Source of the DNA: Streptococcus orisratti DSM 15617
Lineage (GTDB): Bacteria; Bacillota; Bacilli; Lactobacillales; Streptococcaceae
Direction: 5' to 3'
DNA: 64,000 nt
NCBI RefSeq assembly: GCF_000380105.1
Contig: NZ_KB904504.1
Location: 218-64,217 of the forward strand
A program made the translations under genes and the position numbers. Of this stretch, positions 11,508 to 49,059 are shown in pieces. A model generated the notes under the pieces. The model saw only the letters and a list, made by a program, of their open reading frames with translations. It was not told the DNA's origin and searched no databases. How positions within the stretch are numbered: position 1 is the first letter of the stretch; each line of letters opens with the position of its first letter.

Positions 11508-11516
11508 TCAATAAAT

Positions 11517-11547: not shown

Positions 11548-11616
11548 AGATATTTTACTAGGTAAAAGCCTTATTTTATGATAAAATAGTAAGGACTAAA
11601 AAAGGAGTAATTCATC

Positions 11617-12348: not shown

Positions 12349-12401
12349 GAAAACCTTCACTATTAACTAAATCAAGAAACATTAAGGAGAATTCTTTACT
12401 C

Positions 12402-12959: not shown

Positions 12960-12973
12960 GTGAGACAATGAGG

Positions 12974-13001
12974 TATTGGAAAATAGTCCAATATTGCTTT
13001 T
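12974..13001 (+). terminator. Weak pyrH-frr terminator
   Basis: TATTGGA pairs with TCCAATA over a 6-base loop; a broken T tract (ttgctttt) follows. It lies 15 bases after the frr stop codon. The stem is only seven pairs, so read-through is possible. Confidence 0.5.
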
Positions 13002-26356: not shown

Positions 26357-26373
26357 GAATTGAGGATGTAATA

Positions 26374-32011: not shown

Positions 32012-32185
32012 GAATCATTTAGAATTTTGAAATACCCTGTCATATGTCTAGATGGTGCAGAGTTGCGCTTTACAGCATTCTCTGTTAGAATTTAAACAAA
32101 GAATATGACTGCCATTGGTCAGTCAAGACTGTTATTTAATACTTTCGTTAAGTAAAAACAGTCAACTAGTTAGGAGAATATCATA
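32012..32185 (+). promoter_or_regulatory. 174-base gap splitting backbone and side-chain genes
   Basis: TGTTAGAAT near 32083 is an extended -10-like box. Two inverted repeats follow: TGACTG-ccattgg-tCAGTCA and GACTGTT..AACAGTC (about 32129-32165). They could form a partial terminator or an attenuator between gacH and the GTG-initiated side-chain gene. TAGGAG precedes that GTG. This is the only break in an otherwise overlapping gene chain. Confidence 0.4.
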
Positions 32186-32881
32186 GTGAAAAAATTAATC
32201 ATTATCCCTGCTTATAACGAGAGTAGTAATATTGAGCGTACCGTAGAGGCCATTATTAAGGATGCTCCTGATTTTGACTATGTCATTATCAATGATTGTT
32301 CAAAAGACAATACTCTTGAGATTTGTCAGAAGAATGGTTTTAATGTTGTATCCTTACCAATTAATTTGGGGATTGGTGGTGCTGTGCAAACAGGTTACCT
32401 TTATGCCAAAAAAAATGGCTACGACATAGCTGTTCAAGTTGATGGAGATGGTCAGCATAACCCGTCCTTCCTGAATCAGATGGTCGAAGAGTTGAAAAAT
32501 AATCAGGTAGATATGGTGATTGGTTCGCGCTTTATCAAGAATGAAGGTTTCCAATCATCATTTGCTCGTCGTATTGGCATAAGGTATTTTACTTGGTTGA
32601 TTAAACTGATGACTGGTACAAGAATCACGGATGCTACTTCTGGTCTTCGTATGATTAATCGAGGTCTAATTGAACGTTTTGCAGACAATTATCCAGATGA
32701 CTATCCAGAGCCTGAAACTGTAGTAGAAGCTTTATTGAATGATTATAAGGTGAAAGAAATTCCAGTTATCATGAATGAGCGTCAAGGTGGCGTTTCATCC
32801 ATTTCAATGAGCAAGTCAGTTTACTATATGATTAAAGTAACCATGGCGATTTTATTTGTAAAACTGAGAGGAAAACAATAA
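32186..32881 (+). CDS. gacI: Side-chain lipid-sugar synthase (GacI/SccN type, GT2)
   Basis: 231 aa GT2 polyprenyl-phosphate sugar transferase (IIPAYNESSNIERTV, INDCSKDNT, QVDGDGQHNP). In group A streptococci GacI makes GlcNAc-phosphoryl-undecaprenol for the side chain; in S. mutans the counterpart supplies glucose. Which sugar is used here cannot be decided. It starts on GTG at 32186 after TAGGAG. Confidence 0.88.
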   Translation: MKKLIIIPAYNESSNIERTVEAIIKDAPDFDYVIINDCSKDNTLEICQKNGFNVVSLPINLGIGGAVQTGYLYAKKNGYDIAVQVDGDGQHNPSFLNQMVEELKNNQVDMVIGSRFIKNEGFQSSFARRIGIRYFTWLIKLMTGTRITDATSGLRMINRGLIERFADNYPDDYPEPETVVEALLNDYKVKEIPVIMNERQGGVSSISMSKSVYYMIKVTMAILFVKLRGKQ

Positions 32882-32882
32882 T

Positions 32883-33224
32883 ATGACTGCAACAGCAACA
32901 ATTTTTATCAGCCTTATCATACTTGGCTTTATTGTTTTGGTAATCAATTTGATTAGAAAAGGCAAGTTAGCTATCAAGTTTTCAATTTCTTGGTTTATCT
33001 TAGCCTTAATGGTCTTGATTTTTGTTTGGTTTCCAGGACTATTGAAATTTGTCTCATCTCTGTTGGGGATCTATTCACCAACCAATATGCTCTTCTTCCT
33101 TGGCTTTTGTTTGAGTTTGAGCATTATTTTCTCCTTGACAAATAACATTTCAATTCAAAATCATAAGTTAAAACATTTGACGCAAGAAATTGCTTTGATG
33201 AAAAAAGAGGACAAGCATGATTAA
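32883..33224 (+). CDS. gacJ: DUF2304 small membrane partner (GacJ type)
   Basis: 113 aa with three hydrophobic segments and a C-terminal coiled tail (NNISIQNHKLKHLTQEIALMKK). DUF2304 proteins pair with GT2 polyprenyl-phosphate transferases. In group A streptococci GacJ forms a complex with GacI and raises its activity. The length is identical to GacJ. It overlaps gacK by 8 bases. Confidence 0.88.
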   Translation: MTATATIFISLIILGFIVLVINLIRKGKLAIKFSISWFILALMVLIFVWFPGLLKFVSSLLGIYSPTNMLFFLGFCLSLSIIFSLTNNISIQNHKLKHLTQEIALMKKEDKHD

Positions 33225-34485
33225 GACACAAACCAGTCCTCAAAAAATATTCTTTTGGAATATGATGGGGAGTCTATCATCAGCTTTGATATCAGTCTTT
33301 TTGTTAATGGTTGTTTCACGTGTTTTGTCAACCTTAGACTCTGATATTTATGCTTTTGCCTATTCTTTAGGAAATATGCTTGTTGTTGTTGGACTTTTTC
33401 AGGTTAGAAATTTTCAGGCTACAGACATCACTCAAAAGTATTCTTTTTCAGAATACTTTTTGGTACGTTTAATCACCTGTTTTGCGATGATGGCGATAGC
33501 AGTAGCTTACCTAGCTTTGACTGACTATGATGCTTATAAGAGTCAAGTGATTTTTTATATCACACTTTACAGAGCTTCAGATGCCTTTTCTGATCTATAT
33601 CAAGGACTTTTTCAGCAACATGAACGTCTGGACATAGCTGGGAAATCTTTAAGTTTTCGGAATGCAATCCTGTCCATTCTATTTACGATTGTTGTCGTGC
33701 TCACGCACAGGCTTTTGTTAGCGATTCAATTGGTCTGCCTTGTATCATTTGTTTTTATTCTCTTCTATGATGTTAGAAAATCTCTATATTTTGACAAGAT
33801 AGCTTTTAGACAGCTAAGTCAGCTTAGTCTACTAAAGGATGGCATCAAGTTGATGAAGGAAAGTCTCCCACTCTTTTTAAATGGATTTTTGCTTATCTAT
33901 ATTTATAATGAACCAAAGTATGCTTTGGATGCTTTGACTGGTTTGGGAAAGGTTGAGCTGGGATCGCAGACAATTTTCAATATTTTGTTTATGCCTGCCT
34001 TTGTCATGAACCTCATGATGCTTTTCTTCAGACCGCTCATCACACAAATGGCCATCTATATTTCTAAAAAGCAGCTAGCTGATTTTAGAAAACTGCAAAT
34101 TAGACTTTTCTTTTATCTTTTTGGAGCCGGCTTGCTTGTTTTGCTGGGAAGTGCTTTACTTGGAATTCCTTTCTTAAGTTTCTTGTACGGTATCAAGCTT
34201 AGTGACTACTGGGTGGCTTTCATGCTCATCATGGTAGGAGGAGCAGTAGGTAGCTTTTCAACGGCTATTGATAACATTTTGACAGCTATGCGGTGTCAAA
34301 ATTATCTGCTGATTCCATACGTTGGCAGCTTTTGCGCCTCGCTCTTGATGACCAATCATTTAGTAGCTAGTTATCAGATTTTAGGAGCTTCCTTAAGCTT
34401 TGTATTGACCATGCTTATCTGGTTAATCCTGTCAATAGCTGTTTATCTATTTACAAAAAAGAAAGTTGAAAAAGGTGATTTATGA
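33217..34485 (+). CDS. gacK: Wzx-like flippase for side-chain lipid (GacK type)
   Basis: 422 aa with about twelve membrane segments, polysaccharide-flippase fold. It is expected to move the sugar-phosphoryl-undecaprenol made by the two preceding proteins to the outer face. It overlaps gacJ by 8 bases and gacL by ATGA. Confidence 0.87.
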   Translation: MIKTQTSPQKIFFWNMMGSLSSALISVFLLMVVSRVLSTLDSDIYAFAYSLGNMLVVVGLFQVRNFQATDITQKYSFSEYFLVRLITCFAMMAIAVAYLALTDYDAYKSQVIFYITLYRASDAFSDLYQGLFQQHERLDIAGKSLSFRNAILSILFTIVVVLTHRLLLAIQLVCLVSFVFILFYDVRKSLYFDKIAFRQLSQLSLLKDGIKLMKESLPLFLNGFLLIYIYNEPKYALDALTGLGKVELGSQTIFNILFMPAFVMNLMMLFFRPLITQMAIYISKKQLADFRKLQIRLFFYLFGAGLLVLLGSALLGIPFLSFLYGIKLSDYWVAFMLIMVGGAVGSFSTAIDNILTAMRCQNYLLIPYVGSFCASLLMTNHLVASYQILGASLSFVLTMLIWLILSIAVYLFTKKKVEKGDL

Positions 34486-35981
34486 CTAAGACTACAGGTT
34501 TTTCATTATTTGGAATAGTGAAATCAAATTATAAATATGTTTTGTCTATTTTGGCAACTATCATCATGGCTGTTGTTCTTTACACTGATGCCATGGATTT
34601 GCCTATGAAATTTTTAGGACTCCTGTTCCTTGTGTCAGTTCTGCTGATTATTTGTTTACCAAGGAAAATAGAATATGCAACTGTTGCTATTATTTTGCTG
34701 ATGGGATGTATTTCAGCGCTGATTTCCCCGATTAATGATATTCCAGATGAACGTGTCCACTATGCTCGAGCAGTTTACATTTCTGAAGGGGATATCAATT
34801 TAAGTAATAAGAAAGCTAATTTGAAGATTTCTGAAGATGTTAAGCGCATTGATGAACATGCAGGGCAGACTATTATTAGCGAGACTTTAAAGGGGACTAA
34901 GCATAGTACAAAAGAATTTATCTATCCAGAAGTTAAAATGACAAATGCTTATTACAGCCTATCTTACTTGCCACAAGTTATTGGTATTAGTCTAGGTAAT
35001 CTTCTTCATTTACCACTTGTGGCGACCTACTATCTTGGTCGAATCTGTAACCTGCTAGTTTATGCTTTACTGATTTTCTTTGCGATTAAGCTGGCAGGGC
35101 GTTTGAAGCAGGTTGTTGCCGTGACTTCTCTGATTCCGATGAATATTTATCTGGCTGCTTCCTACAACCAAGATGGTTTTGCGCTTGGTCTTGTGATTTT
35201 AGCACTCGCTGTTTTCATGAATATGCTTCAAGCAGAGGATAACGAGATTTCAGGACTGAAATTATTGAGTTATTACTTGTTGTGTGGTTTGCTCGTTCTT
35301 AGTAAGTTTACCTATTTCCTTTTGGTAATACTACCGTTCTTTATTCCAAGCACGAAATTTGACAACAACAAAAAGCTGGTTTTTGTCAATAAGATTTTGG
35401 GGATTCTGATTGTTACAGGCTTTGCAGCCATTTGGTTTAAACTATATGGCCAAGTGAAAATTCCAATTTTAGCAGATTTCCTTAAGCAAGTTAATGTTGG
35501 TGAGCAGATTCATAATCTCATCCATTCTCCACTGGTATATGGTCGAGTGGTGCTTAGAGAAATGCTAGTTAATGTATTTAACCTTGACAACATTCTACGC
35601 TTTGGCGGCCTGACTTACGGGACAACCAATCTTTTTACCCTGTATGCCATTTTTACGGTCTTTGTTTACCTCAACAATGCTACAAAAGTTAAGCTTCATT
35701 GGTGGACGCATTTAGGTGTTTTTCTGGTGATTGCAGGTATTACTGGGGCAACAGTTTTGGCTATGTTCTTGACATGGACACCAGTGGGCTCTATGGTTGT
35801 TTTGGGGGTTCAAAGTCGTTACCTGATTGGTATTTTACCGCTTCTCTTCTTGCTCTTTACCAGTAAAAATCAGCAATTAGAAAAAATATCAGACTTTTTA
35901 TCAACAAAGACTCTCTTGAACGTAGCCTTGCTTTTTGATATTTGCATGCTCTTGAGTACAATTTTTCGGTATTATAATTAG
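34482..35981 (+). CDS. gacL: GT-C side-chain glycosyltransferase (GacL/SccM type, DUF2142)
   Basis: 499 aa with about eleven membrane segments. The first outside loop carries the acidic pair in NDIPDERVHYARA, as in GT-C enzymes of the DUF2142 family. It transfers the side-chain sugar from the lipid carrier to the exported rhamnan. It is the last gene of the cluster, followed by a large hairpin. Confidence 0.88.
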   Translation: MTKTTGFSLFGIVKSNYKYVLSILATIIMAVVLYTDAMDLPMKFLGLLFLVSVLLIICLPRKIEYATVAIILLMGCISALISPINDIPDERVHYARAVYISEGDINLSNKKANLKISEDVKRIDEHAGQTIISETLKGTKHSTKEFIYPEVKMTNAYYSLSYLPQVIGISLGNLLHLPLVATYYLGRICNLLVYALLIFFAIKLAGRLKQVVAVTSLIPMNIYLAASYNQDGFALGLVILALAVFMNMLQAEDNEISGLKLLSYYLLCGLLVLSKFTYFLLVILPFFIPSTKFDNNKKLVFVNKILGILIVTGFAAIWFKLYGQVKIPILADFLKQVNVGEQIHNLIHSPLVYGRVVLREMLVNVFNLDNILRFGGLTYGTTNLFTLYAIFTVFVYLNNATKVKLHWWTHLGVFLVIAGITGATVLAMFLTWTPVGSMVVLGVQSRYLIGILPLLFLLFTSKNQQLEKISDFLSTKTLLNVALLFDICMLLSTIFRYYN

Positions 35982-36163: not shown

Positions 36164-36353
36164 TTGTGTTTTGTAATACAAATTTGATATAATTAAGGCG
36201 GATAAATACGGAATTAAGCACCTTTTAACTGACAAGATGAAAGGAGGTAAATACATTTTTTTGTTGTACTAGAGCTTAACTAGACTAATTTCTTCATTTG
36301 TGTTTTTGTAATTGTTTCAATGATATTGATAATTATTGTAAGAGGTGATAATA
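36164..36353 (+). promoter_or_regulatory. Promoter and leader of the ChW-CHAP gene
   Basis: TTGTGT (36164-36169), an 18-base spacer and an extended -10 TG-A-TATAAT (36185-36193). The leader is about 150 bases. Inside it, AAAGGAGG (36239-36247) is followed by no ATG, GTG or TTG at proper spacing; an ATG at 36237 overlaps it and opens an 11-codon frame. The real gene uses AGAGGTG before ATG 36354. Confidence 0.55.
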
Positions 36354-37757
36354 ATGAAGAAACATTTAATTATGTTGTTACTTATGCTACTTTCATTAAT
36401 AGTAAGTGTAACTAATGTTAGTGCTGATTCGTATGGTATAACTTCAAGTGAAGAAAATAAGGGATTAAGTTATTCTTCTCACATATCAGACTATGGCTGG
36501 CAGAACTTTGTTAGTGGTGGAGAAATCAGTGGAACAACTGGACAAGCGAGATCAATTGAAGCTGTAATGATTAATTTGTCTGATAAGATGGATGTTTATG
36601 GGAACATTGAGTACTCAACACACGTATCGGACTATGGTTGGCAGAATTTTGTTAGTGGTGGAGAAGTCAGCGGAACAACTGGACAAGCGAAATCAATTGA
36701 AGCAATGCGTATTCGTTTAACTGGAGAGTTAGAAAAGAAATACGATGTTTATTACAGAGTTCATGTATCTGATATAGGCTGGTTGGATTGGACAAATAAT
36801 GGGGAACCTGCTGGCACTGAGGGGCTAGCAAAGGGTCTTGAAGCATATGAAGTGAGACTTATTCCAAAGGGAGAGGCATCTCCTGGCACAATGACAAGAT
36901 CATTCATTAGATTTGTGTTACCAAATTTGTATTATAATGCACATGTTAGGGATGTAGGTTGGAAAGATTTTGTAACCGAGGGAATAACTAGTGGCACTGT
37001 AGGTCAGGCAAAACCTATAGAGGCTATCCAAATGAAATTATCAACCTACGATTTTGGTTCTATTCAGTATTCAGCTCATGTTCAAGATTATGGTTGGCAA
37101 GATTTTAGGAGTAACGGAGAAACTAGTGGAACAACTGGACAAGTGAAACAACTTGAAGCAATAAAAGTTCAACTTACTGGAAAACTCTTAGAGAAATATG
37201 ACGTTTACTATAGGGTTCATGTATCTGATATAGGTTGGTTAGGTTGGGCGAAGAATGGGCAGCCTTCTGGAACTGAAGGGTATTTTAAGGCAGTAGAAGG
37301 TTATGAAGTTAAAATTTTACCTAAAAATTCTTCAGCACCGGGTTCTATGGATAAATCATTTATAAAGAAAAGTGAATATGAGGGAGCTACTCCTAGAATT
37401 ACAGATTATATAAATGAAGTGAATAATTATCCTATTGGAGAATGTACTTGGGGTGTGAAAACTTTGGCGCCATGGATACCAAATCAGTTAGGAAATGCCC
37501 GTCTCTGGGCCGTAAATGCGAGATCACGTGGATTTCGCATAGGAGCTTCCCCTATAGTAGGTTCTATAGCTGTCTGGCCCAATGATGGTAAGGGTTATGG
37601 ACATGTTGCCTATGTTATTAAAGTTGAATCAAAAACTCGTATTCAAGTCAAGGAAGCTAACTACTCTGGTAATAGGCGAATAGATAATTATCGTGGATGG
37701 TTTAATCCTACTTCTTATAATTGGGGAGGAGTAGTGGTGTATATTTACCCTGATTAG
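36354..37757 (+). CDS. Secreted ChW-repeat protein with CHAP amidase/peptidase domain
   Basis: 467 aa. The signal peptide covers about residues 1-24 ([16 protein letters not shown]). Six repeats of about 45 aa (to about 335) share H-x-x-D-x-G-W and G-x-x-x-G-T-x-G-x-x-K/R-x-x-E-A, the clostridial hydrophobic W (ChW) pattern. They form two sets of three, the third of each set starting [15 protein letters not shown]. The C-terminal CHAP domain has Cys364 (GECTWG) and His417 (GYGHVAYV), the expected catalytic pair. It is probably a peptidoglycan hydrolase held to the wall through ChW repeats. It lies directly after the wall-polysaccharide cluster with its own promoter. Confidence 0.85.
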
Positions 37758-38358: not shown

Positions 38359-38902
38359 TTATACTTAACAAAAATCATAAATAGCGATATAATAGTTTTA
38401 TGACAAAAGAACTTACGTCCTCCCAAATCGAGGAATTAAAACAGGCCCTTAAAGAAAAAAGCAATGCTCGGCATCATATTCGAGAATATCGCTATTGTTA
38501 TGGAGCTGTAGATGCTCATACAGGCGACTCATTTTCATCATAGCAGGCGGGTGTAATAGCGACTGGATGAATGAGTTTCTAGGCCAGCTATCAGCCACTT
38601 ACCCAGATGACGACATCATTTTAGTCATGGATAATGCCGTCTGGCATAAATCTCAGACATTGACTATTCCTGAGAATATAGAGTTTACCTTCATTCCACC
38701 TTATACACCTGAAATGAACCCCATTGAGCAAGTCTGGGCTGAGATTCGTAAACGCGGGTTTAAGAATAAGATATTTAGAACATTAAATGAGGTCATTGAT
38801 AAACTTCAGGAAGTTATTCAAAGCTTGTCTACTTCTCAACTAAAATCAATTGTACACCGAGAATGGGCAGCCGTTATTTTTGATTTTAAATGAGTATAAA
38901 AG
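38359..38902 (+). mobile_element. IS630-family element, internally deleted
   Basis: The left end (38359-38386, ttatacttaacaaaaatcat...) and the complement of the right end (38874-38901, tttatactcatttaaaatca...) are imperfect inverted repeats, with TA beside the left end as expected for IS630. Only about 540 bp remain. Confidence 0.65.
38400..38893 (+). pseudogene. IS630-family transposase relic
   Basis: ATG 38400 opens MTKELTSSQIEELKQALKEK, the family N-terminus, which after about 28 codons jumps into the DDE domain (YRYCYGAVDAHTGDSF). Most of the helix-turn-helix region and the first catalytic segment are deleted. One T is then missing near 38535, shifting the frame to FIIAGGCNSDWMNEF..VMDNAVWHKS..PPYTPEMNPIEQVWAEIRKR, which is intact to TGA 38893. 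The second aspartate and the final glutamate of DDE are visible. It cannot make a working transposase. Its TATAAT lies six bases before the ATG. Confidence 0.85.
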
Positions 38903-40018: not shown

Positions 40019-40921
40019 TTAAGTCCTAGTGTGTGAACCAAGGCTTTTTTTGATTTCTTGGATAAAAGCTGAGCTGATATCTGATATTTTTTTCTTTTTA
40101 TTGGTCACGTAGCCAAGTGTGTGGCTAGGACTGTCTTTTAGCGGAATGAGAACTATCTGTTCTTTGATGAAACTATCAACGATGCCTAAACCAGAAGCGT
40201 AGGCGTCGCTAGCGCAAAGTAAATTCATGACAGTACCACGGTCATTACTATAAAGGATACGCTGACCTTGGTGAACTTCCAAAGGATCTTCATCAAAGTT
40301 GAGACCAGATTTTTCTTGACGAAACCGAACCTGCTGGTAACCTTCTAAGTCAGCTTCGGAGATTTCACTATTTTTAGCCAGAGGATGCTGGCGACGCAGA
40401 AAAATGCGAGTTGGAAAATCACCAAGAGATGTGAATTCCAAGTCGTGGTTAGTAAGAGAGCGTTCTAAAATATGTTTATTATCATCATTCAAGTAAATAA
40501 TGCCTAAGTCCGCCTCAAAATTTGCCACGTTTTCAAGAATGCGTTTAGTCGTTGTCTCAATTAATTGAAATTCCTGATAGTCTTCTCCAAATTGCTCAGC
40601 CATTTTTGCCAAAGGAATCGAAAGAAAATCGTAGTGATGGGAGGCTACTGTAAAACTTTTCTTAAAAGTGCTGTGATAGCGCTGTTCAAGTAAATTCAAC
40701 TCACCGATAATTCGTTTTGCATATTTGAGAAAATCATGCCCATCTTCAGTTAATCTAGTTCCCATATTGGAACGTGTAAAAAGTTGAACTCCGAGTTCAT
40801 TTTCCAAATCTTTGATAGAACTGGATAAATTAGGTTGGGTGACGTAGAGCTCTTTAGCAGCCTGACTAAAAGACCCTGCTCTAGCAACCACCTCAACATA
40901 ACGACACTGTTGTAAATTCAT
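40019..40921 (-). CDS. LysR-family regulator, CmbR/CysR-like
   Basis: 300 aa. The N-terminal winged helix-turn-helix is MNLQQCRYVEVVARAGSFSQAAKELYVTQPNLSSSIKDLENELGVQLF. The effector domain follows (about 90-295). Such proteins in streptococci control cysteine and methionine uptake. The start at 40921 follows GGAGGGTCTCTT-like sequence; longer starts lack a site. It is divergent from the first ABC/URO-D operon. A TGATA-N9-TATAA-N4-TGATA element lies between them, close to the published CmbR box. Regulation of both operons downstream is an inference. Confidence 0.82.
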   Translation of the reverse strand: MNLQQCRYVEVVARAGSFSQAAKELYVTQPNLSSSIKDLENELGVQLFTRSNMGTRLTEDGHDFLKYAKRIIGELNLLEQRYHSTFKKSFTVASHHYDFLSIPLAKMAEQFGEDYQEFQLIETTTKRILENVANFEADLGIIYLNDDNKHILERSLTNHDLEFTSLGDFPTRIFLRRQHPLAKNSEISEADLEGYQQVRFRQEKSGLNFDEDPLEVHQGQRILYSNDRGTVMNLLCASDAYASGLGIVDSFIKEQIVLIPLKDSPSHTLGYVTNKKKKISDISSAFIQEIKKSLGSHTRT

Positions 40922-41010
40922 AAGAGACCCTCCCCAAAGATACTTGTAGCCATTATAACAGAAACGTTTCTGAAAAATCAGCAAAATCCTGATACAAAAA
41001 AACTAAGAGG

Positions 41011-41068
41011 TGATAACTTTTATTTATAACGGATGATAAGTTTTGTTAATTATAAATTTTTCTTATCA
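41011..41068. promoter_or_regulatory. Operator of the LysR regulator (CmbR-type box plus palindrome)
   Basis: TGATA (41011-41015), 9 bases, TATAA (41025-41029), 4 bases, TGATA (41034-41038). The known CmbR box is TGATA-N9-TATCA-N2-4-TGATA, so there is one mismatch. The outer parts also form a palindrome: GTGATAAC..TTTATAA against TTATAAA..CTTATCAC (41010-41069). It lies between the divergent lysR gene and the first binding-protein gene. Confidence 0.55.
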
Positions 41069-41139
41069 CTAGACATAAAAAATAGAGATTATGCAAGGAG
41101 TGAAAGGGATGGTAAGATAGGAGCAAGTTAAAAAATGAA
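41049..41139 (+). repeat. Duplicated 91-bp promoter/leader, copy A
   Basis: The block ATTATAAATTTTTCTTAT..AAAAAATGAA is repeated without gaps at 44827-44917 with 6 differences in 91 bases. It covers the right operator half, a weak GATTATGC -10-like segment and a purine-rich leader (ggagtgaaaggg, gataggagcaag). The ATG at 41135 inside the block opens only four codons here, so the true start is ATG 41152. Confidence 0.85.
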
Positions 41140-41151
41140 GGGGGATTGAAG

Positions 41152-41955
41152 ATGAAAAAATATTTTAACTTACTAATTCTTACAGCACTCGGATTGTTGT
41201 TGACAACCAAGGTTGATGCGGACAGCAAAACCTTGACGGTAGCTTTGGAACAAAATACTCAACCGCTGAGTTATAATAACAAAAATGGGAAATTAGTGGG
41301 TTACGAGGTAGATGTCATTAAAAAAATCAACTCAGTAATCAAAGGTTATCATATCGAAATTGAGGCAGTATCTGCTGAGGCGGCTGAGGTTGGTATTGAA
41401 AGTGGAAAATATGATTTAGTTGGTGGCGGTCTTTTTAAAACGGCAGAGCGCGAAAAGAAATATCTTTTTCCAAGTGAGAATACAGGAGTTAGTACGATTG
41501 AAATTTACAAACGCAGTGATGACAAAGATATTCAAACCTTAGATGATCTTGTTGGTAAAAAATTAAGTCCAGTGACAGCTAACGGAGGAATTTATAACCT
41601 ACTAACAACTTACAATAACAAGCATCAAGATAATCAGATTACTATTCCACTTGGAGAGAGTGGGGAACTTGCACAACGTTATCAAAATCTTGCAGATGGC
41701 AAATATGATGCAGTTGTAATGCCTTCAAATTTTGGAGCGGACAAAATTATTAAGCAATTAAATTTAGATGTCGTTACTGCTGATGAACCTGTTCAAGTAA
41801 ACGCAACTTATTTTATTATTTCAAAGAAAGAGCAAAAGTTTAAAGAGGCTTTTGATAAAGCTGTCAACAAATTAAAGGCTCAAGGAACCTTGTCCAAATT
41901 GTCTAAAAAGTGGTTTGGAGAAGATATGTTCAAATATAAAATAACAGAAGAATAA
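41152..41955 (+). CDS. Polar-amino-acid-type substrate-binding protein, operon A
   Basis: 267 aa, SBP family 3 (LTVALEQNTQPLSYNNKNGKLVGYEVDVIKKIN; SGKYDLVGGGLFKTAERE; TLSKLSKKWFGED). An N-terminal hydrophobic segment (residues 5-18) ends TTKVDADS. There is no cysteine in the protein and hence no lipobox, so it is either released by signal peptidase I or held by an uncleaved anchor; most Gram-positive binding proteins are lipoproteins. AAGGGGG lies 6 bases before ATG 41152. First gene of operon A under the shared leader. Confidence 0.85.
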   Translation: MKKYFNLLILTALGLLLTTKVDADSKTLTVALEQNTQPLSYNNKNGKLVGYEVDVIKKINSVIKGYHIEIEAVSAEAAEVGIESGKYDLVGGGLFKTAEREKKYLFPSENTGVSTIEIYKRSDDKDIQTLDDLVGKKLSPVTANGGIYNLLTTYNNKHQDNQITIPLGESGELAQRYQNLADGKYDAVVMPSNFGADKIIKQLNLDVVTADEPVQVNATYFIISKKEQKFKEAFDKAVNKLKAQGTLSKLSKKWFGEDMFKYKITEE

Positions 41956-41972
41956 TCGTTAATGGAGGGAAT

Positions 41973-42656
41973 ATGAGTATTGATTATATGTTAGAAATCT
42001 TACCGAGTCTTTTATCAAAAATTCCCTTAGTTATCTCTGTTTTTCTTTTATCAGCATTGGTCTCTCAAGTTCTTGCGGTCATACTTGTCGTGATACGTGA
42101 GTGTAGGATACCTCTTTTATCGCAACTTATTTTTGTTTTTATTTCCTTTGCCAAAAGTGTTCCAGGTCTCATTCATATTTTCATTGTATATTATGGCTTA
42201 CCTTTGCTGTTATTACGTTTTGGAATTGACATCAATCATTGGAGTAAATTTGCATTCTCAGTCATCGCTTTGAGCATTTATCAAGGTGTGACGGTTTCTG
42301 AAATTATAAGGCCGGCTTATGAAGCGATTCCTATAGAACAATTTGAAGCAGGTAAGAGCATTGGAATGACAACAGGGCAGATTATTAAAAGGATTATTGT
42401 GCCACAGATGTATCCAATCATGTTGCCAAGTTTAGGAAATGCTTCAATTGATCTATTTAAATACACCTCTTTATTATTTTTAATTGGGCTTGCAGATATT
42501 ATGGGGCAAGCTGAAATATTTGTGGCTAATTCTTATGGTATTTACCAGCTGGAAGTTTATTTTATTGTTGCTCTCATTTACTGGTTTTTTTCTTGGGGGG
42601 TTGGGCAGTTGTTTAAATCTCTTGAACAATCTTCGAGACGTTTCTTAGCGAGTTGA
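41973..42656 (+). CDS. Amino-acid ABC permease, operon A, first subunit
   Basis: 227 aa with about five membrane segments and the HisM-type coupling loop EAIPIEQFEAGKSIGMTTGQIIKRIIVPQMYPIMLPSLGN. It imports the ligand of the adjacent binding protein. AATGGAGGGA precedes the ATG. The following permease starts 8 bases after its stop. Confidence 0.88.
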   Translation: MSIDYMLEILPSLLSKIPLVISVFLLSALVSQVLAVILVVIRECRIPLLSQLIFVFISFAKSVPGLIHIFIVYYGLPLLLLRFGIDINHWSKFAFSVIALSIYQGVTVSEIIRPAYEAIPIEQFEAGKSIGMTTGQIIKRIIVPQMYPIMLPSLGNASIDLFKYTSLLFLIGLADIMGQAEIFVANSYGIYQLEVYFIVALIYWFFSWGVGQLFKSLEQSSRRFLAS

Positions 42657-42664
42657 GGTTGATT

Positions 42665-43354
42665 ATGGCAGGGTATATTGACATATTTAGAAAGATAATT
42701 GTTGTTGTTCCCTACACACTTTTTCTAGCAATACTTATACTTATTATTGGTGTTTTAGGGGGAAGTGTTTTAGCAGTTGTAAAGAATAAAAAATTTGTAT
42801 TTCTTAATACGATAATTGATCTTTACATTTCGTATATCCGAGGCGTTCCTATTGTTGTACATTTATTGATTGCACAGGCTATGCTACCCCAAATTGTTGA
42901 GGGGTTCTATAAACTGTCTGGAAAAGAAGTTTTAAATCCAGATATTCCCGCATTCGTAATTGTATTGGTCTGTTATAGTTCATATCAGATTGCAATTGAA
43001 TCAGAAAACTTGAGGGGGATTTATCAATCTTTTGATAAAGCACAGTTAGAAGCCGGATTATCAATTGGTTTAACACTGGGGCAAGTTTTCAGGAGGATTG
43101 TGATACCGCAATTGATTCCAACAGCAATACCGATTTTGTTAAATTCATTTCTAAAGATTGTTAGGACATTGTCGGTTGCTTTTTTAGTTGGAGTCGTTGA
43201 TATTATGGCGAGTGCTCGCTATGTGGCGGCTTTAACATCAAATTATGTATTATCATTTGTTGTGGCTGGATTGATCTATTGGTTTATTTGTTTGAGTATT
43301 GAAGGTTTACTAAGGTTATTTTCAATAGGATTAAAATTAAGCGAGTATAGGTGA
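42665..43354 (+). CDS. Amino-acid ABC permease, operon A, second subunit
   Basis: 229 aa HisM/GlnP-type permease with coupling loop YQSFDKAQLEAGLSIGLTLGQVFRRIVIPQLIPTAIPILLNS. It forms a heterodimer with the preceding protein. I use ATG 42665 (MAGYIDIF) behind GAGG rather than the TTG at 42653. No ATPase gene exists in operon A; the one at 48301 probably serves both transporters. Confidence 0.87.
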   Translation: MAGYIDIFRKIIVVVPYTLFLAILILIIGVLGGSVLAVVKNKKFVFLNTIIDLYISYIRGVPIVVHLLIAQAMLPQIVEGFYKLSGKEVLNPDIPAFVIVLVCYSSYQIAIESENLRGIYQSFDKAQLEAGLSIGLTLGQVFRRIVIPQLIPTAIPILLNSFLKIVRTLSVAFLVGVVDIMASARYVAALTSNYVLSFVVAGLIYWFICLSIEGLLRLFSIGLKLSEYR

Positions 43355-43358
43355 AGAT

Positions 43359-44390
43359 ATGAGTAAAATCGAAAAAATTAAAAAAGTTTTAAATGGTGAA
43401 TTAACAGAGGATATTCCATTTTCTTTTTGGACACATTTTCCAGATATTGATCGAATTCCAGAATTAATAGCTGAAGAAACCTATCAGTTCTATAAAAGAT
43501 TTGACCTAGATTTTATTAAGACTATGAACAATGGTATGTATGCAACTGAGGACTATGGTTGTAAGATTGATTATTCTAAAATTGAAAGTGGAGGAGTTGC
43601 TGAAATCATCTCCACCCCAATTGAAAGTTACACTGATTGGAAAAAATTAAAGACGCTAAATCTCCAAGATGCTCCAGCTTTGCAGCGTGAATTAACTTAT
43701 TTACGGCTGCTTTTAGAAAGAGTGCAGGGAGAGGTTCCTGTCGTAATAACGGTTTTTAGTCCGTTGACGATTGCTGATAAAATCAGTGGAGGAAAAATTT
43801 TGGAAAGCATTACAGAGGAAGAAAAAGGTGGTCAATTGTTCAAGTCTGCACTAGAGAAGATTTCAAAAATTACTGCAGAATTTGTAGCAGAAGCAATATC
43901 AATTGGTGCAGATGGTATCTATTTTGCCAGTCAAGTCAGTACCTTTGAGAGGCTATCTGCACAGCAATATCTTGAATACGGTCGCCCTTATGATTTGAAG
44001 GTTTTAGAAAAAGCTCAAAATGCTTGGTTTAATACTGTTCACTTACATGGAAATAAAATTATGTTTGATGTTGTCAAAGATTATCCTGTTCAGGCAATTA
44101 ATTGGCATATAGGTGAAAGCTATCCAACTCCAAGAGAAGGGCAGATTTATTCTCAAAAAGTAATCATGGGTGGAATTAATAGATGGGATGTCACCGCGTC
44201 AAATTTCAATGAATTGCATCATCAGATTTATCGGACTATCTTTGGGACACAAGGGAAAGGGCTGATTCTAGCTCCTGCGTGTGTTATCCCTAAACCTTAT
44301 GATGACGGTGTTATTGATTATCTGAAAAAAGTAAAGCAAGAAACTCAAATATTATTTAATGATAATTATCTTGAAAGCAGTTTACTTTAA
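43359..44390 (+). CDS. URO-D-superfamily protein, operon A (H-x-H...C variant)
   Basis: 343 aa TIM-barrel of the uroporphyrinogen decarboxylase superfamily (IPFSFWTHFPD, FIKTMNNGMYATEDYG, ADGIYFASQV). The position of the zinc motif in methyl-transferring relatives reads His228-Leu-His230-Gly, with Cys308 in APACVIP. The usual cysteine of H-x-C is thus a histidine. True haem-pathway HemE is unlikely: no other haem genes are near and it is coupled to an importer. A Zn-bound methyl or alkyl transfer step on the imported compound is an inference. Confidence 0.75.
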   Translation: MSKIEKIKKVLNGELTEDIPFSFWTHFPDIDRIPELIAEETYQFYKRFDLDFIKTMNNGMYATEDYGCKIDYSKIESGGVAEIISTPIESYTDWKKLKTLNLQDAPALQRELTYLRLLLERVQGEVPVVITVFSPLTIADKISGGKILESITEEEKGGQLFKSALEKISKITAEFVAEAISIGADGIYFASQVSTFERLSAQQYLEYGRPYDLKVLEKAQNAWFNTVHLHGNKIMFDVVKDYPVQAINWHIGESYPTPREGQIYSQKVIMGGINRWDVTASNFNELHHQIYRTIFGTQGKGLILAPACVIPKPYDDGVIDYLKKVKQETQILFNDNYLESSLL

Positions 44391-44415
44391 ACTGAAGTTA
44401 GTAGTGAGATATGAA

Positions 44416-44592
44416 ATGAAGATGAAATTAATCATTTTTTTAGTTGCTTTTTTTCTAATTTGTATGGTTTTAGTCCTTATAAGTCAAGAGTCTATTTTTT
44501 CCGCCATTTTTCCTAATTGTCATGACAAAACTATATCAAGAGATGATTTAGAACGCATCAACTGTTTCAAAAGTTTCTTTTTATTAAGGTGA
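44416..44592 (+). CDS. Small single-pass membrane protein of unknown function
   Basis: 58 aa. Residues 4-22 form one hydrophobic helix (LIIFLVAFFLICMVLVLIS); a short polar tail with two cysteines follows (FPNCHDK, ERINCFKSF). Two start choices (ATG 44416 or 44422) follow a weak AGTGAG. It lies 25 bases after the URO-D gene and before the operon terminator, so it is transcribed with operon A. I do not recognise it. Confidence 0.45.
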   Translation: MKMKLIIFLVAFFLICMVLVLISQESIFSAIFPNCHDKTISRDDLERINCFKSFFLLR

Positions 44593-44663
44593 AGAAAGCT
44601 TTAGGGCAAAAATGTTAACTGCCGATAAAATAATTCAGAACAACATATCATTTTTCTTATTGT

Positions 44664-44687
44664 ACCGGCCTTGTGCTGGTTTTTTTA
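44664..44687 (+). terminator. Operon A terminator
   Basis: ACCGGC pairs with GCTGGT around CTTGT, followed by seven T, about 70 bases past the small membrane protein gene. Confidence 0.8.
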
Positions 44688-44788
44688 TTGATAAATTGCA
44701 AGAATAGATGCAACTTTTATTGAAACCATTAATATCTCAAAGGCTATCTGATAACCTAAATATTTTCGTGAACGAGAGTCTAGTTTCA

Positions 44789-44917
44789 CCATAACAAATA
44801 CTTATAGCCGGCAATAACATTTACTGATTATAAATTTTTCTTATGGCTAAACATAAAAAATAAAGATTATGCAAGGAGTGAAAGGGGTGGTAAGATGGGA
44901 GCAAGTTAAAAAATGAA
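44789..44917 (+). repeat. Duplicated promoter/leader, copy B
   Basis: 44827-44917 matches copy A (41049-41139) gaplessly with 6 differences. The alignment continues leftwards to 44789 more loosely: the first operator part is degenerate here (CCATA..TATAG..CAATA). The ATG at 44913 in the block is in frame with the URO-D gene, but ATG 44931 has the better ribosome binding site. The rest of 44593-44930 holds only the operon A terminator. Confidence 0.82.
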
Positions 44918-44930
44918 AGGAAGTATTACG

Positions 44931-45938
44931 ATGACAACAAAAAGGGAATTAGTTTTAAAAGCCTTTCGAGGTGAAGAGGTTGATCGAGTGCCTGTTGGTT
45001 TTTGGTACCATTTTGCGGAAGAAGATGAATTGTTGAGAGGATTTAATAATCCAGAAATTTTCGCTAAAAATGTTGCAGGTCATAAGAAATTTGTTGATGA
45101 TGTTAAACCTGATTTTGTCAAAATCATGAGTGATGGTTTTTTTGCTTATCCAAATCCATTGATCAAAGAAGGTATTAGTTCTATTAAAGATTTGGCAGGC
45201 ATCCAGTCAATCGGTGAAGATCACCCTTGGTTTGACCAACAAGTTGAGCTGGTCAAGCAAGTTCGTGCTAATTTTAGAGAAGATATCGTTTCAGTTTATA
45301 ATATTTTTGCTCCATTGACACATTTAAAATGGCAAATCTCAAATAAAGTTGCTTATGGAGACGAACGTGTTGCAGAATTTCTACGAGAAGATCCAGAGAC
45401 TTTAAAACACGTTTTGGATGTCATTGCTTATGATATTGCGCAACTTGTAAAGAAAGTCATTACAGAAGCAGGTGCAGACGGTATTTATTATAGTGCCCAA
45501 AATATCCAAGCCAGAGGGATTGAACGTCAAGATTATATTGATTATGTTTCAGAGAGCGATTTAATCGTCTTGGAAGCAGCCAATAGAGTTCAGGGGCAAA
45601 CCATTCTTCACATTTGTGGCTACAAAGGGGCAAGTAACGATGTTACTGTCTTTAAAAATTACCCTGTACAAGTTGTCAATTGGGCCGTCGAACCTGAGGG
45701 GATTTCACTAAAAGAAGGTCAAAAGTTATTTGGTGGAAAGACTGTTTTAGGTGGATTTGAAAATACTGAACATAGTTTACTTTATACTGGAAGTAAAGAA
45801 GAAGTTCAAGCAGAAGCGAAGCGTTTAATTACCGACAATGGCAAACGAGGGATTATCATTGGCGCAGATTGTACTATTCCAAGCGATATCAGTTCAGAGC
45901 GTATTGAATGGGTACGTGAAGCAGTAGCTCAAGCATAG
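44931..45938 (+). CDS. URO-D-superfamily methyltransferase-like protein, operon B (H-x-C...C)
   Basis: 335 aa, paralogous to the operon A protein over its whole length. It carries His227-Ile-Cys229-Gly and Cys314 (GADCTIP), the H-x-C...C zinc signature of corrinoid- or thiol-dependent methyltransferases (MtaA, MtbA, CmuA) within the URO-D superfamily. HemE lacks this motif. No corrinoid protein is encoded nearby, so methyl transfer may be cobalamin-independent. AAAGGA lies 8 bases before ATG 44931. First gene of operon B. Confidence 0.8.
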   Translation: MTTKRELVLKAFRGEEVDRVPVGFWYHFAEEDELLRGFNNPEIFAKNVAGHKKFVDDVKPDFVKIMSDGFFAYPNPLIKEGISSIKDLAGIQSIGEDHPWFDQQVELVKQVRANFREDIVSVYNIFAPLTHLKWQISNKVAYGDERVAEFLREDPETLKHVLDVIAYDIAQLVKKVITEAGADGIYYSAQNIQARGIERQDYIDYVSESDLIVLEAANRVQGQTILHICGYKGASNDVTVFKNYPVQVVNWAVEPEGISLKEGQKLFGGKTVLGGFENTEHSLLYTGSKEEVQAEAKRLITDNGKRGIIIGADCTIPSDISSERIEWVREAVAQA

Positions 45939-45956
45939 GAAGCAGGGGGAAATATT

Positions 45957-46835
45957 ATGAGTAAGAAAAAATGGATTATTGCTAGTGGAGTACTCGTCGC
46001 GGTTGTTGCAGCAACTGTCATTGGACGACAACTAACAGGTAAGTCAGACAGTGATACTAATTCAGCATCAGGCAGTTCCGATAAGGTCATTACGCTAAAG
46101 GTTGCACACACACAAAGTTATGCTCCTTATGATTTTGTCAATGAAAAAGGTGAAAGTGATGGCTTTGAAGTTGCTGTTTTGAAAGCTATTGATAAAAAAT
46201 TAGATAAGTACCAATTTGAATATACTGGAACCAGCGATGAAGACTTGTTGATTGGACTTGAATCGGGTAAGTATGACATTGGAACAAAAGGAGCATGGTA
46301 CACTGCTGAGCGTGCAGAAAAATTTATCATTCCTAAAAATGCTATTGGGGCAAGCATCATTGGCTTTACCATTCGTAAAGATGATGCAAGCAAATTTAAA
46401 GATATTGCTTCTTTTGCAGCAGCTGGCGGGAAATTAGTGCCTATTTCTCCCCAAAATGCTCAATACAATGTTATTCAAGAGTATAATAAGAAAGCCTCAA
46501 ACCCAATCGCTCTAACTGAAGCGGAAAGTTTCAATGTGGCAGATGCTTATGCTTGGGTATTGGAGGGACGTTACGATGCCTACTTTGATATCAAATTATC
46601 TTTTGAAAATGCAGTAACCAAGGAGGATGGCGCCTATCATCAATACGCTGAAAAGTTGACTTGGTTCCCTTATAAAGGAATCGAAACTTATCCACTTATT
46701 CATAAAAATGCTACCAACGAGGATTTTGCGAAAGCCTATGACAAAGCAATCCAAGAACTTCAAGACGATGGAACAATTTCTAAACTTTCTAAGAAGTATT
46801 TTGGAGAAGATGTTTTCTCATATGTAACGGATTAA
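45957..46835 (+). CDS. Polar-amino-acid-type substrate-binding protein, operon B
   Basis: 292 aa, SBP family 3 (LKVAHTQSYAPYDFVNEKGESDGFEVAVLKAID; SGKYDIGTKGAWYTAERAEKF; TISKLSKKYFGED). An N-terminal hydrophobic segment (6-22) precedes a Ser/Asp/Gly linker. There is no cysteine, so it is probably membrane-anchored rather than a lipoprotein, like its operon A counterpart. GGGGGAAAT precedes the ATG 18 bases after the URO-D gene. Confidence 0.85.
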   Translation: MSKKKWIIASGVLVAVVAATVIGRQLTGKSDSDTNSASGSSDKVITLKVAHTQSYAPYDFVNEKGESDGFEVAVLKAIDKKLDKYQFEYTGTSDEDLLIGLESGKYDIGTKGAWYTAERAEKFIIPKNAIGASIIGFTIRKDDASKFKDIASFAAAGGKLVPISPQNAQYNVIQEYNKKASNPIALTEAESFNVADAYAWVLEGRYDAYFDIKLSFENAVTKEDGAYHQYAEKLTWFPYKGIETYPLIHKNATNEDFAKAYDKAIQELQDDGTISKLSKKYFGEDVFSYVTD

Positions 46836-46850
46836 ATGTAAAGAGCTGAA

Positions 46851-46887
46851 GGGAAGACTCTGAATCCTGAGGAGTTCTTTCCTTTTT
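46851..46887 (+). terminator. Hairpin between binding protein and permeases, operon B
   Basis: GGGAAGACTC pairs imperfectly with GGAGTTCTTTCC, followed by five T. It lies 15 bases after the binding-protein gene. Such intercistronic hairpins often let the binding protein be made in excess over the permeases. Confidence 0.55.
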
Positions 46888-46909
46888 GATTAATACTTTG
46901 GAGGTGTTC

Positions 46910-47602
46910 ATGGTTTCTTATGACCTATCTTATGTTTTTAAATTTCTTCCAGATATTCTATCTGCTCTACCATTAACGCTGTGGATACTATTGCTAACGA
47001 CTGGTCTAGGAAGTCTACTTGGAGCTCTCTTGGCTTGGGGACAGCTTTATGGTGATGAGGTGTTAGCATCCTTATCAAGGGGATATGTCTTTGTTTTGAG
47101 ATGTACACCTCCGATTGTACTTCTTTTTATGATTTTTTATGGATTGCCAGAATTTTTAGAATGGTGGCTTGGTTTAGATGTTAATGGTTGGTCACGGACG
47201 ATTTTTGTAGTAACAGCTATGACATTATTATTTGCAGCCAGCATTTCAGAGGTTTTCAAATCCGCCTATGAAGCTGTCCCAGTAGGTCAGATGGAAGCAG
47301 GATTAAGTATTGGATTAACAGAACTACAAACTTTTTGGAGAATACTTTTCCCTCAAGCTTTTCGCATAGCCTTGCCTAATATTAGTAACGCCATTTTGAA
47401 TTTGTTGAAAGATACGGCCTTGGCTTATACTATTGGGTTAGCCGATGTGATGGGTGCTGGAAATCTTTTAATTGGACGAAATCTTGGAAACTATTCTTTA
47501 GAAACTTATACAGCTGTTGCTGTTATTTATTGGGGGCTTGCTTTGTTACTGTCAGTTGGAAGTCAGCTTCTTGAAAAGTCTTTAGATGCAGGAAAACGGT
47601 AG
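46910..47602 (+). CDS. Amino-acid ABC permease, operon B, first subunit
   Basis: 230 aa with the HisM-type loop EAVPVGQMEAGLSIGLTELQTFWRILFPQAFRIALPNISN. The start at 46910 (MVSYDLSYVFKF) follows GGAGGTG; the longer TTG start at 46886 lies in the preceding hairpin. It pairs with the next permease. Confidence 0.88.
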   Translation: MVSYDLSYVFKFLPDILSALPLTLWILLLTTGLGSLLGALLAWGQLYGDEVLASLSRGYVFVLRCTPPIVLLFMIFYGLPEFLEWWLGLDVNGWSRTIFVVTAMTLLFAASISEVFKSAYEAVPVGQMEAGLSIGLTELQTFWRILFPQAFRIALPNISNAILNLLKDTALAYTIGLADVMGAGNLLIGRNLGNYSLETYTAVAVIYWGLALLLSVGSQLLEKSLDAGKR

Positions 47603-47611
47603 GAGGAACTT

Positions 47612-48292
47612 ATGAATTTTAATTTTATTATTTCTACTCTCATTAAGGCTTTATCAGGTGTTCCAGTAACATTGGGTATAATGATTGTTGCTATTTTGCT
47701 AAGTTTCTTTCCGGCACTTTTTCTAGCTTTGGGACGGTTGTACAAGGTAAAGGGGGTTACAGGATTTTCAATAATTTATTTAGCTTTTATCCGATCAACA
47801 CCACCTATTTTATTGATTTTATTTTTTTATAGCCTTTTTCCGAGTGTTTTAAATAGCTTATTAAAAGGGACTGGTATCAATGTTTTCGAGATCAATCCAA
47901 TCTTTTATGCCTTTATCATTTTTAGTTTGATGACAACAGGAAGTCTCTCTGAGATTATTCGTTCTGCTATTTTAACCGTAGACAAGGGACAATTGGAAGC
48001 GGCGCAGGCTATCGGATTAAGCAATACGCAGGCCTATCTTAGGATTATTTTTCCACAGGCATTGCGCTCAGCTCTCCCCAATCTTTGTAACTTGGTAATC
48101 AATCTGGTTAAGGGAACATCTTTGGTTTTTGTGATGACAGTTAAAGATATTACGGCAATCGCTAAAGTGGAGGCTGCCTACGGTTATCAGTATTTTGAGT
48201 CTTACTTTGTTATCTTTATCATCTATATTTTAATTTGTGGTATTATCCAGTATATATTTAGAAGTCTTGAAAAGCGTGTAAAATTTGCATAG
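47612..48292 (+). CDS. Amino-acid ABC permease, operon B, second subunit
   Basis: 226 aa with the loop [40 protein letters not shown] and about five membrane segments. AGGAGG lies upstream of the ATG, 9 bases after the preceding gene. Confidence 0.88.
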
Positions 48293-48300
48293 GAGTTAAT

Positions 48301-49059
48301 ATGTTAGAAGTAAAAAATATTGAAAAATCGTTTGGCGATAAAAAAGTTTTGGATGGTGTTAGTTTGAAGGTCAATCAGGGAGATGTTGTGGTTATCCTTG
48401 GTCCCTCTGGCTCAGGTAAGACAACATTTTTACGTTCTCTCAATTATTTGGAAAAAGCAGATTTGGGACAACTGATATTGGATGAAAAGTCTTATGACTT
48501 GTCTAAAATCAGCCGTAAGGATGTTCTGGAAATTCGTCAGAAAACAGCTTTTGTTTTCCAGAATTATAATCTTTTTGCCAATAAAACAGCCCTAGAAAAT
48601 ATTTTGGAAGGACTTGTTATTGCGAGAAAAATTCCAAAGGCAGAGGCCTTGGTGATTGCAGAAAAAGCCTTAGAAAAAGTGGGTTTATCTGATAAAAGAG
48701 ATGCTTATCCAAGTCAACTTTCTGGAGGTCAGCAGCAAAGGATTGGAATTGCCCGTGCTATCGCAGTTAAGCCAGATGTTATCCTTTTTGACGAGCCGAC
48801 CTCTGCTCTTGATCCAGAATTGATTGGAGATGTGTTATCTGTCATGAAAGAATTAGCACGAGAGGGCGTGACCATGGTGGTTGTCACACACGAGATGAGC
48901 TTTGCGCGTGATGTAGCAAATCATGTTATCTTTATGGAAGGTGGACATATCATTGAAGAAGGCGAGCCAAAAACCTTTTTTACGCGCCCAAAAGAAGAAA
49001 GAACAAAACAGTTTTTGACACGAATCATACCAGAATTAAGTATGGATCCGATTATTTGA
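48301..49059 (+). CDS. Amino-acid ABC transporter ATPase
   Basis: 252 aa, GlnQ/HisP type. Walker [13 protein letters not shown], signature [14 protein letters not shown], Walker [15 protein letters not shown] and switch histidine VVTHEM. It is the only ATPase gene among the two operons, so it probably energises both permease pairs. Closed by a terminator about 100 bases on. Confidence 0.93.

Follow-up and report, generated by a model that had tools for sequence, protein, structure and literature searches.

Importer cassettes with URO-D-fold proteins in Streptococcus orisratti and a possible corrinoid-free route for sulfur amino acids

Why should the genes of an amino acid importer be bound to a gene for a protein of the uroporphyrinogen decarboxylase (URO-D) superfamily, whose known roles so far lie in haem synthesis and corrinoid methyl transfer? 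The question is raised by two neighbouring gene cassettes, A and B, of Streptococcus orisratti DSM 15617, which lie in a stretch of 64,000 nucleotides (the window hereafter; contig NZ_KB904504.1 of assembly GCF_000380105.1, positions 218-64,217). The observation is sound and not due to chance. Our preferred answer, with a probability of about 0.4, is that the cassettes import a sulfur-containing, probably S-methylated, amino acid and that the URO-D protein carries out corrinoid-free methyl transfer at zinc. If methyl groups are indeed moved without vitamin B12, this would be a new use of the superfamily, and it could explain the oxygen-free use of methylated sulfur compounds by mouth and gut bacteria. 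Additionally, an operon of this kind is altered in several Streptococcus mutans expression studies, whose relevant passages annotate it as an amino acid importer only, and URO-D homologues in distant bacteria keep the metal-site triad and adjoin genes of sulfur metabolism. The URO-D protein is small and well modelled, making the question directly testable.

Two paralogous cassettes and an operon already in print

Nine open reading frames (ORFs) on the forward strand form the two cassettes, as laid out in a preliminary description of this DNA (Table 1). A Pfam scan of the nine genes, with two SBP_bac_3, four BPD_transp_1, two URO-D and one ABC_tran match, bears out the gene content claimed there. 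Cassette A runs binding protein, permease, permease, URO-D protein, and cassette B runs URO-D protein, binding protein, permease, permease, ATPase; the ATPase gene is present in cassette B only. Every subunit family of a polar amino acid ATP-binding cassette (ABC) importer is represented, namely a family-3 solute-binding protein, HisM-type permeases and a TcyN-type ATPase. Identities over the aligned parts are 34% for the binding proteins, 25% for the URO-D proteins, 41% for the first permeases and 33% for the second, in keeping with the earlier view that the two cassettes are paralogues. The genome (2.4 Mb in 90 contigs) has two URO-D matches, both in these cassettes. The divergent LysR gene, the duplicated operator-bearing promoter, the terminator-like site and the appearance of operon B in print go beyond the preliminary description, which numbered the B-type URO-D protein from an ATG at 44931; in the longer ORF from 44913 used here, its His227, Cys229 and Cys314 become His233, Cys235 and Cys320. 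By eye, the N-terminal segment of both binding proteins has no cysteine; neither protein looks like an ordinary lipoprotein, and that of cassette B may be anchored by an N-terminal helix that is not cleaved. GC content is lower in cassette A (0.34-0.35 at 41000-44000) than in cassette B (0.37-0.39 at 45000-49000), and cassette A may have arrived separately.

Table 1. Features of the cassette region, in positions of the window
Feature	Position	Strand	Remarks
LysR-family regulator	40019..40924	-	PF00126 + PF03466; divergent from cassette A
CmbR-type operator match	41010..41030	both	3 mismatches
Cassette A promoter region, copy 1 of 130-bp repeat	41013..41142	+	84% identical to 44791-44920
CmbR-type operator match	41049..41069	-	2 mismatches
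Cassette A family-3 solute-binding protein	41152..41955	+	PF00497; ORF opens at 41146
Cassette A permease 1, HisM-type	41973..42656	+	PF00528
Cassette A permease 2, HisM-type	42653..43354	+	PF00528
A-type URO-D-fold protein, H-x-H...C	43359..44390	+	PF01208
Terminator-like hairpin between cassettes	44664..44680	+	consensus match only
Cassette B promoter region, copy 2 of 130-bp repeat	44791..44920	+	upstream of B URO-D gene
CmbR-type operator match	44827..44847	-	3 mismatches
B-type URO-D-fold protein (SMU.932 type), H233/C235/C320	44913..45938	+	PF01208
Cassette B family-3 solute-binding protein (SMU.933 type)	45957..46835	+	PF00497
Cassette B permease 1, HisM-type	46886..47602	+	PF00528
Cassette B permease 2, HisM-type	47612..48292	+	PF00528
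Cassette B ATPase	48301..49059	+	ABC_tran; best NCBIfam match cystine TcyN

By sequence, cassette B matches the SMU.932-936 kind of operon of S. mutans and appears to encode orthologous proteins. We take tcyDEFGH to be the same operon, its five letters fitting the five genes. The S. mutans operon shares with cassette B the order URO-D protein, binding protein, two permeases and ATPase and, probably, membership of a sulfur regulon; unlike S. mutans, the window has an extra A cassette preceding B. In the cited part of PMC10782952, SMU.932 is a "hypothetical protein" with the C-terminus IAWVKEAVTL and SMU.933 a putative amino acid ABC transporter with the C-terminus GEDVFNYVTK; the window's B URO-D protein ends in RIEWVREAVAQA and its B binding protein in GEDVFSYVTD. 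Both printed 10-mers occur in one streptococcal locus, L072, that of SMU.932 on a 338-amino-acid B-type URO-D protein 59% identical to the window's (SMU.932 itself was compared by its printed 10-mer only) and that of SMU.933 on a 107-amino-acid frame, apparently a broken binding-protein gene. The SMU.933 end also occurs in L039, L071, L073 and L074. Parts of the operon can decay: apparently broken copies lie at L072:8028-8881 (binding-protein gene) and at L037:8669-9715 and L058:10723-11088 (upstream URO-D gene).

In the passages cited from S. mutans studies, SMU.932-936 or most of its genes are amino acid transporters changing with saliva, manganese limitation, coculture with S. mitis, magnesium or HlyX loss, and GpsB repression, and the table of a Cnm study lists SMU.933-936 with values of 37 to 49. 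Elsewhere, tcyDEFGH is described in excerpt as a cysteine transport operon (PMC10233336) whose activation needs HomR (PMC5131005); the passages cited from two papers that mention HomR give no locus numbers for it. Since cassette B is thus a known importer operon, calling the system undescribed was too strong. In these printed passages its first gene is hypothetical and methyl transfer is not proposed; our literature search yielded no study of what the URO-D gene does, and an S. gallolyticus gene is listed as uroporphyrinogen decarboxylase under porphyrin synthesis in the cited part of a transcriptome paper (PMC5786311). The published label supports a different answer, in which the cassettes are plain cystine, cysteine or thiol importers and the URO-D protein is a zinc enzyme with other chemistry (a lyase or decarboxylase) or serves the importer as a sensor or helper. 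We regard this as a possible explanation, held with less than even confidence.

The URO-D proteins: clade, metal-site motif and fold

The Pfam family and a structural match to UroD nearly equal to that of the methyltransferases might suggest that these are genuine uroporphyrinogen decarboxylases (HemE) or remnants thereof. The HemE model TIGR01464 gives the two proteins 29.8 and 22.2 bits against a cut-off of 302.95, they stand in a separate clade, and E. coli HemE does not carry the streptococcal motif residues. The HemE reading, dropped on the bit scores and the tree, is to our minds almost certainly wrong, as the preliminary description had implied; a position inside HemE was looked for in the phylogeny and not found. 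The tree (71 sequences, LG+F+G4, 1000 ultrafast bootstrap replicates, UFBoot) was rooted on E. coli HemE, and its outgroups were this one HemE and MtaA/CmuA members from Bacillota only. Within this sampling the cassette URO-D proteins are a clade apart from HemE and from MtaA/CmuA: 56 proteins of the cassette kind group together (UFBoot 97), beside the 14 MtaA/CmuA members (UFBoot 90). The 32 B-type proteins group together (UFBoot 90), and the 19 A-type proteins form a weak group (UFBoot 32) with an inner clade around the window A protein (UFBoot 100). A W-x-H...K signature marks the clade (B numbering), with H33 in 56 of 56 proteins and W31 and K70 in 55 of 56 each; in the alignment, these residues are absent from the 14 MtaA/CmuA members and HemE.

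The H-x-C...C motif that had been noticed in the B protein (His233, Cys235, Cys320) proved invariant in all 116 B-type homologues, and A-type proteins carry H-x-H...C instead. In the cited portion of Kountz and Balskus 2023 (PMC10418091), S-methyltransferases of the URO-D superfamily are stated to coordinate zinc by His-Cys-Cys, and O-methyltransferases to have other residues in place of one or both cysteines. In a profile alignment, the H-I-C-G of MtbA falls on the B motif, and Aquifex HemE has neither residue. The motif thus favours a methyltransferase in the case of the B protein, and the invariant triad, a methyltransferase pattern absent from E. coli HemE, counts against a plain importer with an accessory enzyme of other chemistry.

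Structure is less discriminating. Searched against PDB with phmmer, neither URO-D protein gave a significant match, and the B profile reached 2eja, a HemE, at E 0.011 and 4ay7, an MtbA, at E 0.061. The B model is confident (predicted local distance difference test, pLDDT, 94.4), with MtbA 4ay7 as the top Foldseek match (7.0e-14) followed by human UroD (7.8e-14); the A model is weaker (pLDDT 77.7), with MtbA 4ay8 on top. Structural Z scores are 27-29 against both UroD and MtbA and 17-20 against MetE. In the comparison with MtbA suggested earlier, MtbA is the best match and its H-I-C-G lies on the B motif; by structural Z, UroD fits equally well. This equality suits an importer accompanied by a decarboxylase.

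Distribution, regulation and sulfur context

A URO-D match occurs in 79 of 197 Streptococcus genomes, and 60 streptococcal loci were drawn from 59 of these 79; the window's genome is another. All 92 streptococcal URO-D genes of at least 290 amino acids, the window's included, have a binding-protein gene and at least one permease gene within 4 kb on the same strand. This neighbour count and the motif typing leave out three URO-D frames below 300 amino acids (two in L037, one in L058), apparently broken copies. Tandem pairs of B-type URO-D genes are present in many streptococcal loci; A-type genes occur, within the whole streptococcal set, in the window, L032 and L038 only. A second set, of 79 named loci drawn from the 80 best among 458 confirmed hits and so favouring near relatives, spans Streptococcus, three Enterococcus, Lachnospiraceae and other Clostridia, and Treponema and its relatives; in these four kinds of bacteria, the importer adjoins 116 of 116 URO-D genes. 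Searches of the order and, with a stricter cut-off, of the phylum found matches in 57 of 395 and 7 of 398 genomes, respectively. The least biased set comprises 30 hand-picked loci, 25 from 20 of the 32 matching non-Streptococcus genomes of the order search and five from the phylum search. Together the 169 loci (60 + 79 + 30) are not independent, as many of the 60 and the 79 are the same places. Among the 30, the importer adjoins 14 of 14 B-type (H-x-C-G) genes, 11 of 16 A-type (H-x-H-G) genes (including L219, L220 and L248, which are third-type genes inside a B cassette), with one more adjoining a permease only, and none of five URO-D genes of other types. The link between importer and URO-D gene that the preliminary description proposed thus stands, and regular separation of the two was not found.

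The genes without this importer have other neighbours. The A-type gene of L223 adjoins genes for a permease and for an ATPase that fits MetN best, though below cut-off. In L230, L243 and L245, no importer of the family-3/HisM type lies close by. URO-D genes of a third kind in L235, L238 and L247 (W-x-H, H-M/I-C-K) adjoin phosphotransferase system (PTS) genes of the sorbose/mannose type (L238 scanned) and perhaps belong to another import-plus-sulfur system. An M20 dipeptidase-like gene also lies beside the third-kind gene in L235 and L238, and L238 has a Cys/Met pyridoxal phosphate (PLP) enzyme as well. Genes of a fourth kind (H-T-C-G; L244:4921-8407 and L246:5325-8805) adjoin an NlpA/MetQ-family lipoprotein gene (L244 scanned); both loci have a pyrroline-5-carboxylate-reductase-like gene beside them. 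Because A-type and related URO-D genes accompany MetN-like, MetQ-like or PTS genes, the protein is not tied to one importer, which argues against its being merely a part of a cysteine transporter. In L219 the A and B cassettes lie side by side, as in the window; its cluster at 2526-13741 holds three URO-D genes (H-I-H-G, H-I-C-G, H-A-H-G), two importer cassettes and a GFO/IDH/MocA oxidoreductase.

With MtaA/CmuA and PRK06252 as the nearest curated models, the URO-D protein might instead depend on a corrinoid, as methyltransferases of the MtaA or Mlp kind do, and borrow a corrinoid protein encoded elsewhere; the presence of B12-binding proteins in 9 of 20 non-Streptococcus carriers would allow this. 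No such domain exceeded the cut-off in the other 11, nor in any of 60 carrier Streptococcus genomes (two with weak sub-threshold matches), and none matched in the S. orisratti genome. A corrinoid-domain profile built from six fused CmuA-like proteins had no match in the 60, 79 and 30 URO-D loci, consistent with the earlier statement that no corrinoid protein is nearby; on control MtaA/CmuA-type loci it matched one of eight short and seven of ten longer ones. We therefore dropped this reading as highly improbable, and the URO-D protein family seems to work without vitamin B12. The cassette proteins share fold and, in the B type, H-x-C...C with MtaA/MtbA/CmuA (TIGR01463), and differ in scoring far under the cut-off, in their own clade with W-x-H...K, in the corrinoid partner not found and in the H-x-H...C of the A type. 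Similarly, type 1 mlp clusters resemble the cassettes in having several homologues of URO-D S/Se-methyltransferases per cluster and a link to sulfur and selenium, and are unlike them in encoding a corrinoid protein and its RACE activase together with Mlp2 and Mlp3, as far as the cited part of PMC10418091 goes; for S. orisratti this difference was judged from the B12-binding domain, which had no match in its genome. The main text of that paper does not mention streptococci.

Regulation points to sulfur. The CmbR operator of the pneumococcal cysteine regulon is given as GYGATAAAAAWWAYTTATMAC in the cited part of PMC5131005. At no more than three mismatches it has four matches at three places in the 64-kb window, all within the two cassette promoters, against 0.20 expected, and none of 100 shuffles reaches four. 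In the 60 streptococcal loci (1.13 Mb), 26 of which have the motif, 31 of its 40 places are no more than 350 bp upstream from a cassette or URO-D gene, in windows that by our arithmetic cover about 3% of the sequence. Given the matches in both promoters and this enrichment, both cassettes are most likely under LysR regulators of cysteine and methionine metabolism, and the divergent LysR protein is a candidate regulator of both; a LysR gene directly precedes the B URO-D gene in several loci without cassette A. A cysteine-regulon operator would also be expected upstream of an ordinary cysteine importer. Rfam matched no riboswitch family in the window and, in 19 of the 20 non-streptococcal loci (L159 was left out as near-identical to L158 by gene list), only small RNAs and tRNAs. 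A sigma-70 scan was not used (40 sites against a shuffle mean of 36.4).

The B ATPase scores 323 bits with the cystine TcyN model of NCBIfam, below the cut-off of 406, and probably serves both importers. This is suggested by L032 (genome G173, with one URO-D match), where the A cassette, in the order LysR, binding protein, permeases, URO-D protein, ATPase, ends in an ATPase 93% identical to that of the window, and by genome G043, where no ATPase of the B kind was seen in the fetched A locus and the B cassette lies on a separate contig. The A cassettes of L222, L226, L228, L232 and L234 have their own ATPase gene.

Sulfur also appears in the relatives of the binding proteins and in the gene neighbours. 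The best PDB matches are 4c0r, 4eq9, 4gvo and 2o1m for cassette A and 4c0r, 4eq9, 2o1m and 4gvo for cassette B, and YtmK and Lmo2349 come next after 4c0r and 4eq9 for both. We take 4c0r and 4eq9 to be pneumococcal GshT, of the glutathione type. These nearest relatives fit simple uptake of cystine or thiols as well. The betaine substrate considered earlier has no support, because binding-protein relatives, operators and neighbours indicate sulfur amino acids. Recurrent neighbours in the 20 non-streptococcal loci are Cys/Met PLP enzymes (6), CysK (4) and Rrf2-type regulators (4), along with an aminotransferase/PatB cluster in six, a loose one in which L155 and L161 resemble other aminotransferases. 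Single neighbours over their model cut-off are a PatB family C-S lyase, cysteine synthase, MetE and MetF; cystathionine gamma-lyase/homocysteine desulfhydrase and CymR are best matches below cut-off.

MetE and MetF genes adjoin the cassette in Treponema loci L158, L159 and L165 (L158 confirmed by model), which favours a MetE-like role in which the URO-D protein would methylate a zinc-bound thiol, either imported or from within the cell, by means of a cell-made donor such as 5-methyltetrahydrofolate. MetE has a zinc site, and the cassette proteins share with it a related barrel fold and the logic of a zinc site without corrinoid, here His-x-Cys...Cys. Unlike MetE, they have half its size and an importer link, and neither protein has a MetE model (TIGR01371 or PF01717) among its matches; MetE is encoded by a gene of its own. 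A MetE-like role would leave the constant importer unexplained, and G026 and G130 keep the cassette without full-length MetE. We consider it unlikely, though far from negligible.

A proposed route and the points that weigh against it

In the preferred reading, import of a methylated sulfur amino acid with corrinoid-free methyl transfer, cysteine shortage would act through the LysR regulator to turn on both cassettes, whose binding proteins would capture a sulfur-containing, probably S-methylated, amino acid, with one ATPase powering both importers. In the cell, zinc on the URO-D protein would bind either a thiol or the sulfur that was imported, and the protein would transfer the methyl group directly, with no corrinoid taking part, between the compound brought in and a thiol, for example homocysteine; the gain would be cysteine, homocysteine or methionine. 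The A-type protein, with its different metal site, probably acts on a different imported compound. What is said here on regulation, import class and motif is backed by the results above; from these we infer the ligand, the methyl transfer, its direction and the difference of the A type. More broadly, and as a tentative generalization, the W-x-H clade may be a widespread corrinoid- and oxygen-independent URO-D branch that demethylates imported sulfur amino acids (B type, H-C-C) and related compounds (A type, H-H-C), each subtype with its own importer.

The nearest analogy is Bacillus subtilis YtmJKLMN/YxeMNO, a system of S-alkylcysteine salvage in which sulfur is freed by oxygen-dependent monooxygenases. 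Like the cassettes, it couples a cystine-type importer to the use of S-alkyl amino acids, but the cassettes have a URO-D-fold protein in place of the monooxygenases; the likeness is one of analogy only. Our literature search found no salvage route of the W-x-H kind. So far as that search shows, the corrinoid-free W-x-H clade with two metal-site types and its importer bond across phyla are new, as are the cysteine-regulon promoter common to both cassettes and the ATPase that they probably share.

Several points weigh against the preferred reading. The strongest is chemical: thioether demethylation in the URO-D superfamily is known only with corrinoids, and an onium compound (S-methylmethionine) or a folate may therefore be a likelier donor than S-methylcysteine. 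The MtaA/CmuA model TIGR01463 gives only 44.4 (A) and 40.2 (B) bits against a cut-off of 235.4, the cassette proteins fall outside the MtaA/CmuA clade, and the modelled fold cannot separate a methyltransferase from HemE or a decarboxylase. No CmbR operator match at three mismatches was present in 34 of the 60 streptococcal loci. Full-length MetE was present in 30 and a PF02574 methyltransferase in 24 of the 32 carriers tested among the 60 streptococcal ones; an extra methyl route is not obviously needed there, and because most carriers have these enzymes, it is improbable, judging from gene content, that the URO-D protein merely stands in for methionine synthesis. Finally, unexplained dehydrogenases stand beside some cassettes, of the SDR type in L164, L168 and L239 and of the GFO/IDH type in L219, a hint of a further step.

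Elsewhere in the window, the gene 3' of cassette B resembles mevalonate kinase (named by eye). Upstream of the cassettes, an apparent polysaccharide gene cluster at 22260-35981 (named by eye) is directly followed on its 3' side by a gene at 36345-37757 (+) for a secreted protein of 470 amino acids with six matches to Clostridial-hydrophobic-W (ChW) repeats and a C-terminal CHAP domain. A DDE_3 transposase piece at 38495-38893 (+), covering profile positions 49-145 of 146, sits between the ChW protein gene and an aldo/keto-reductase-like gene.

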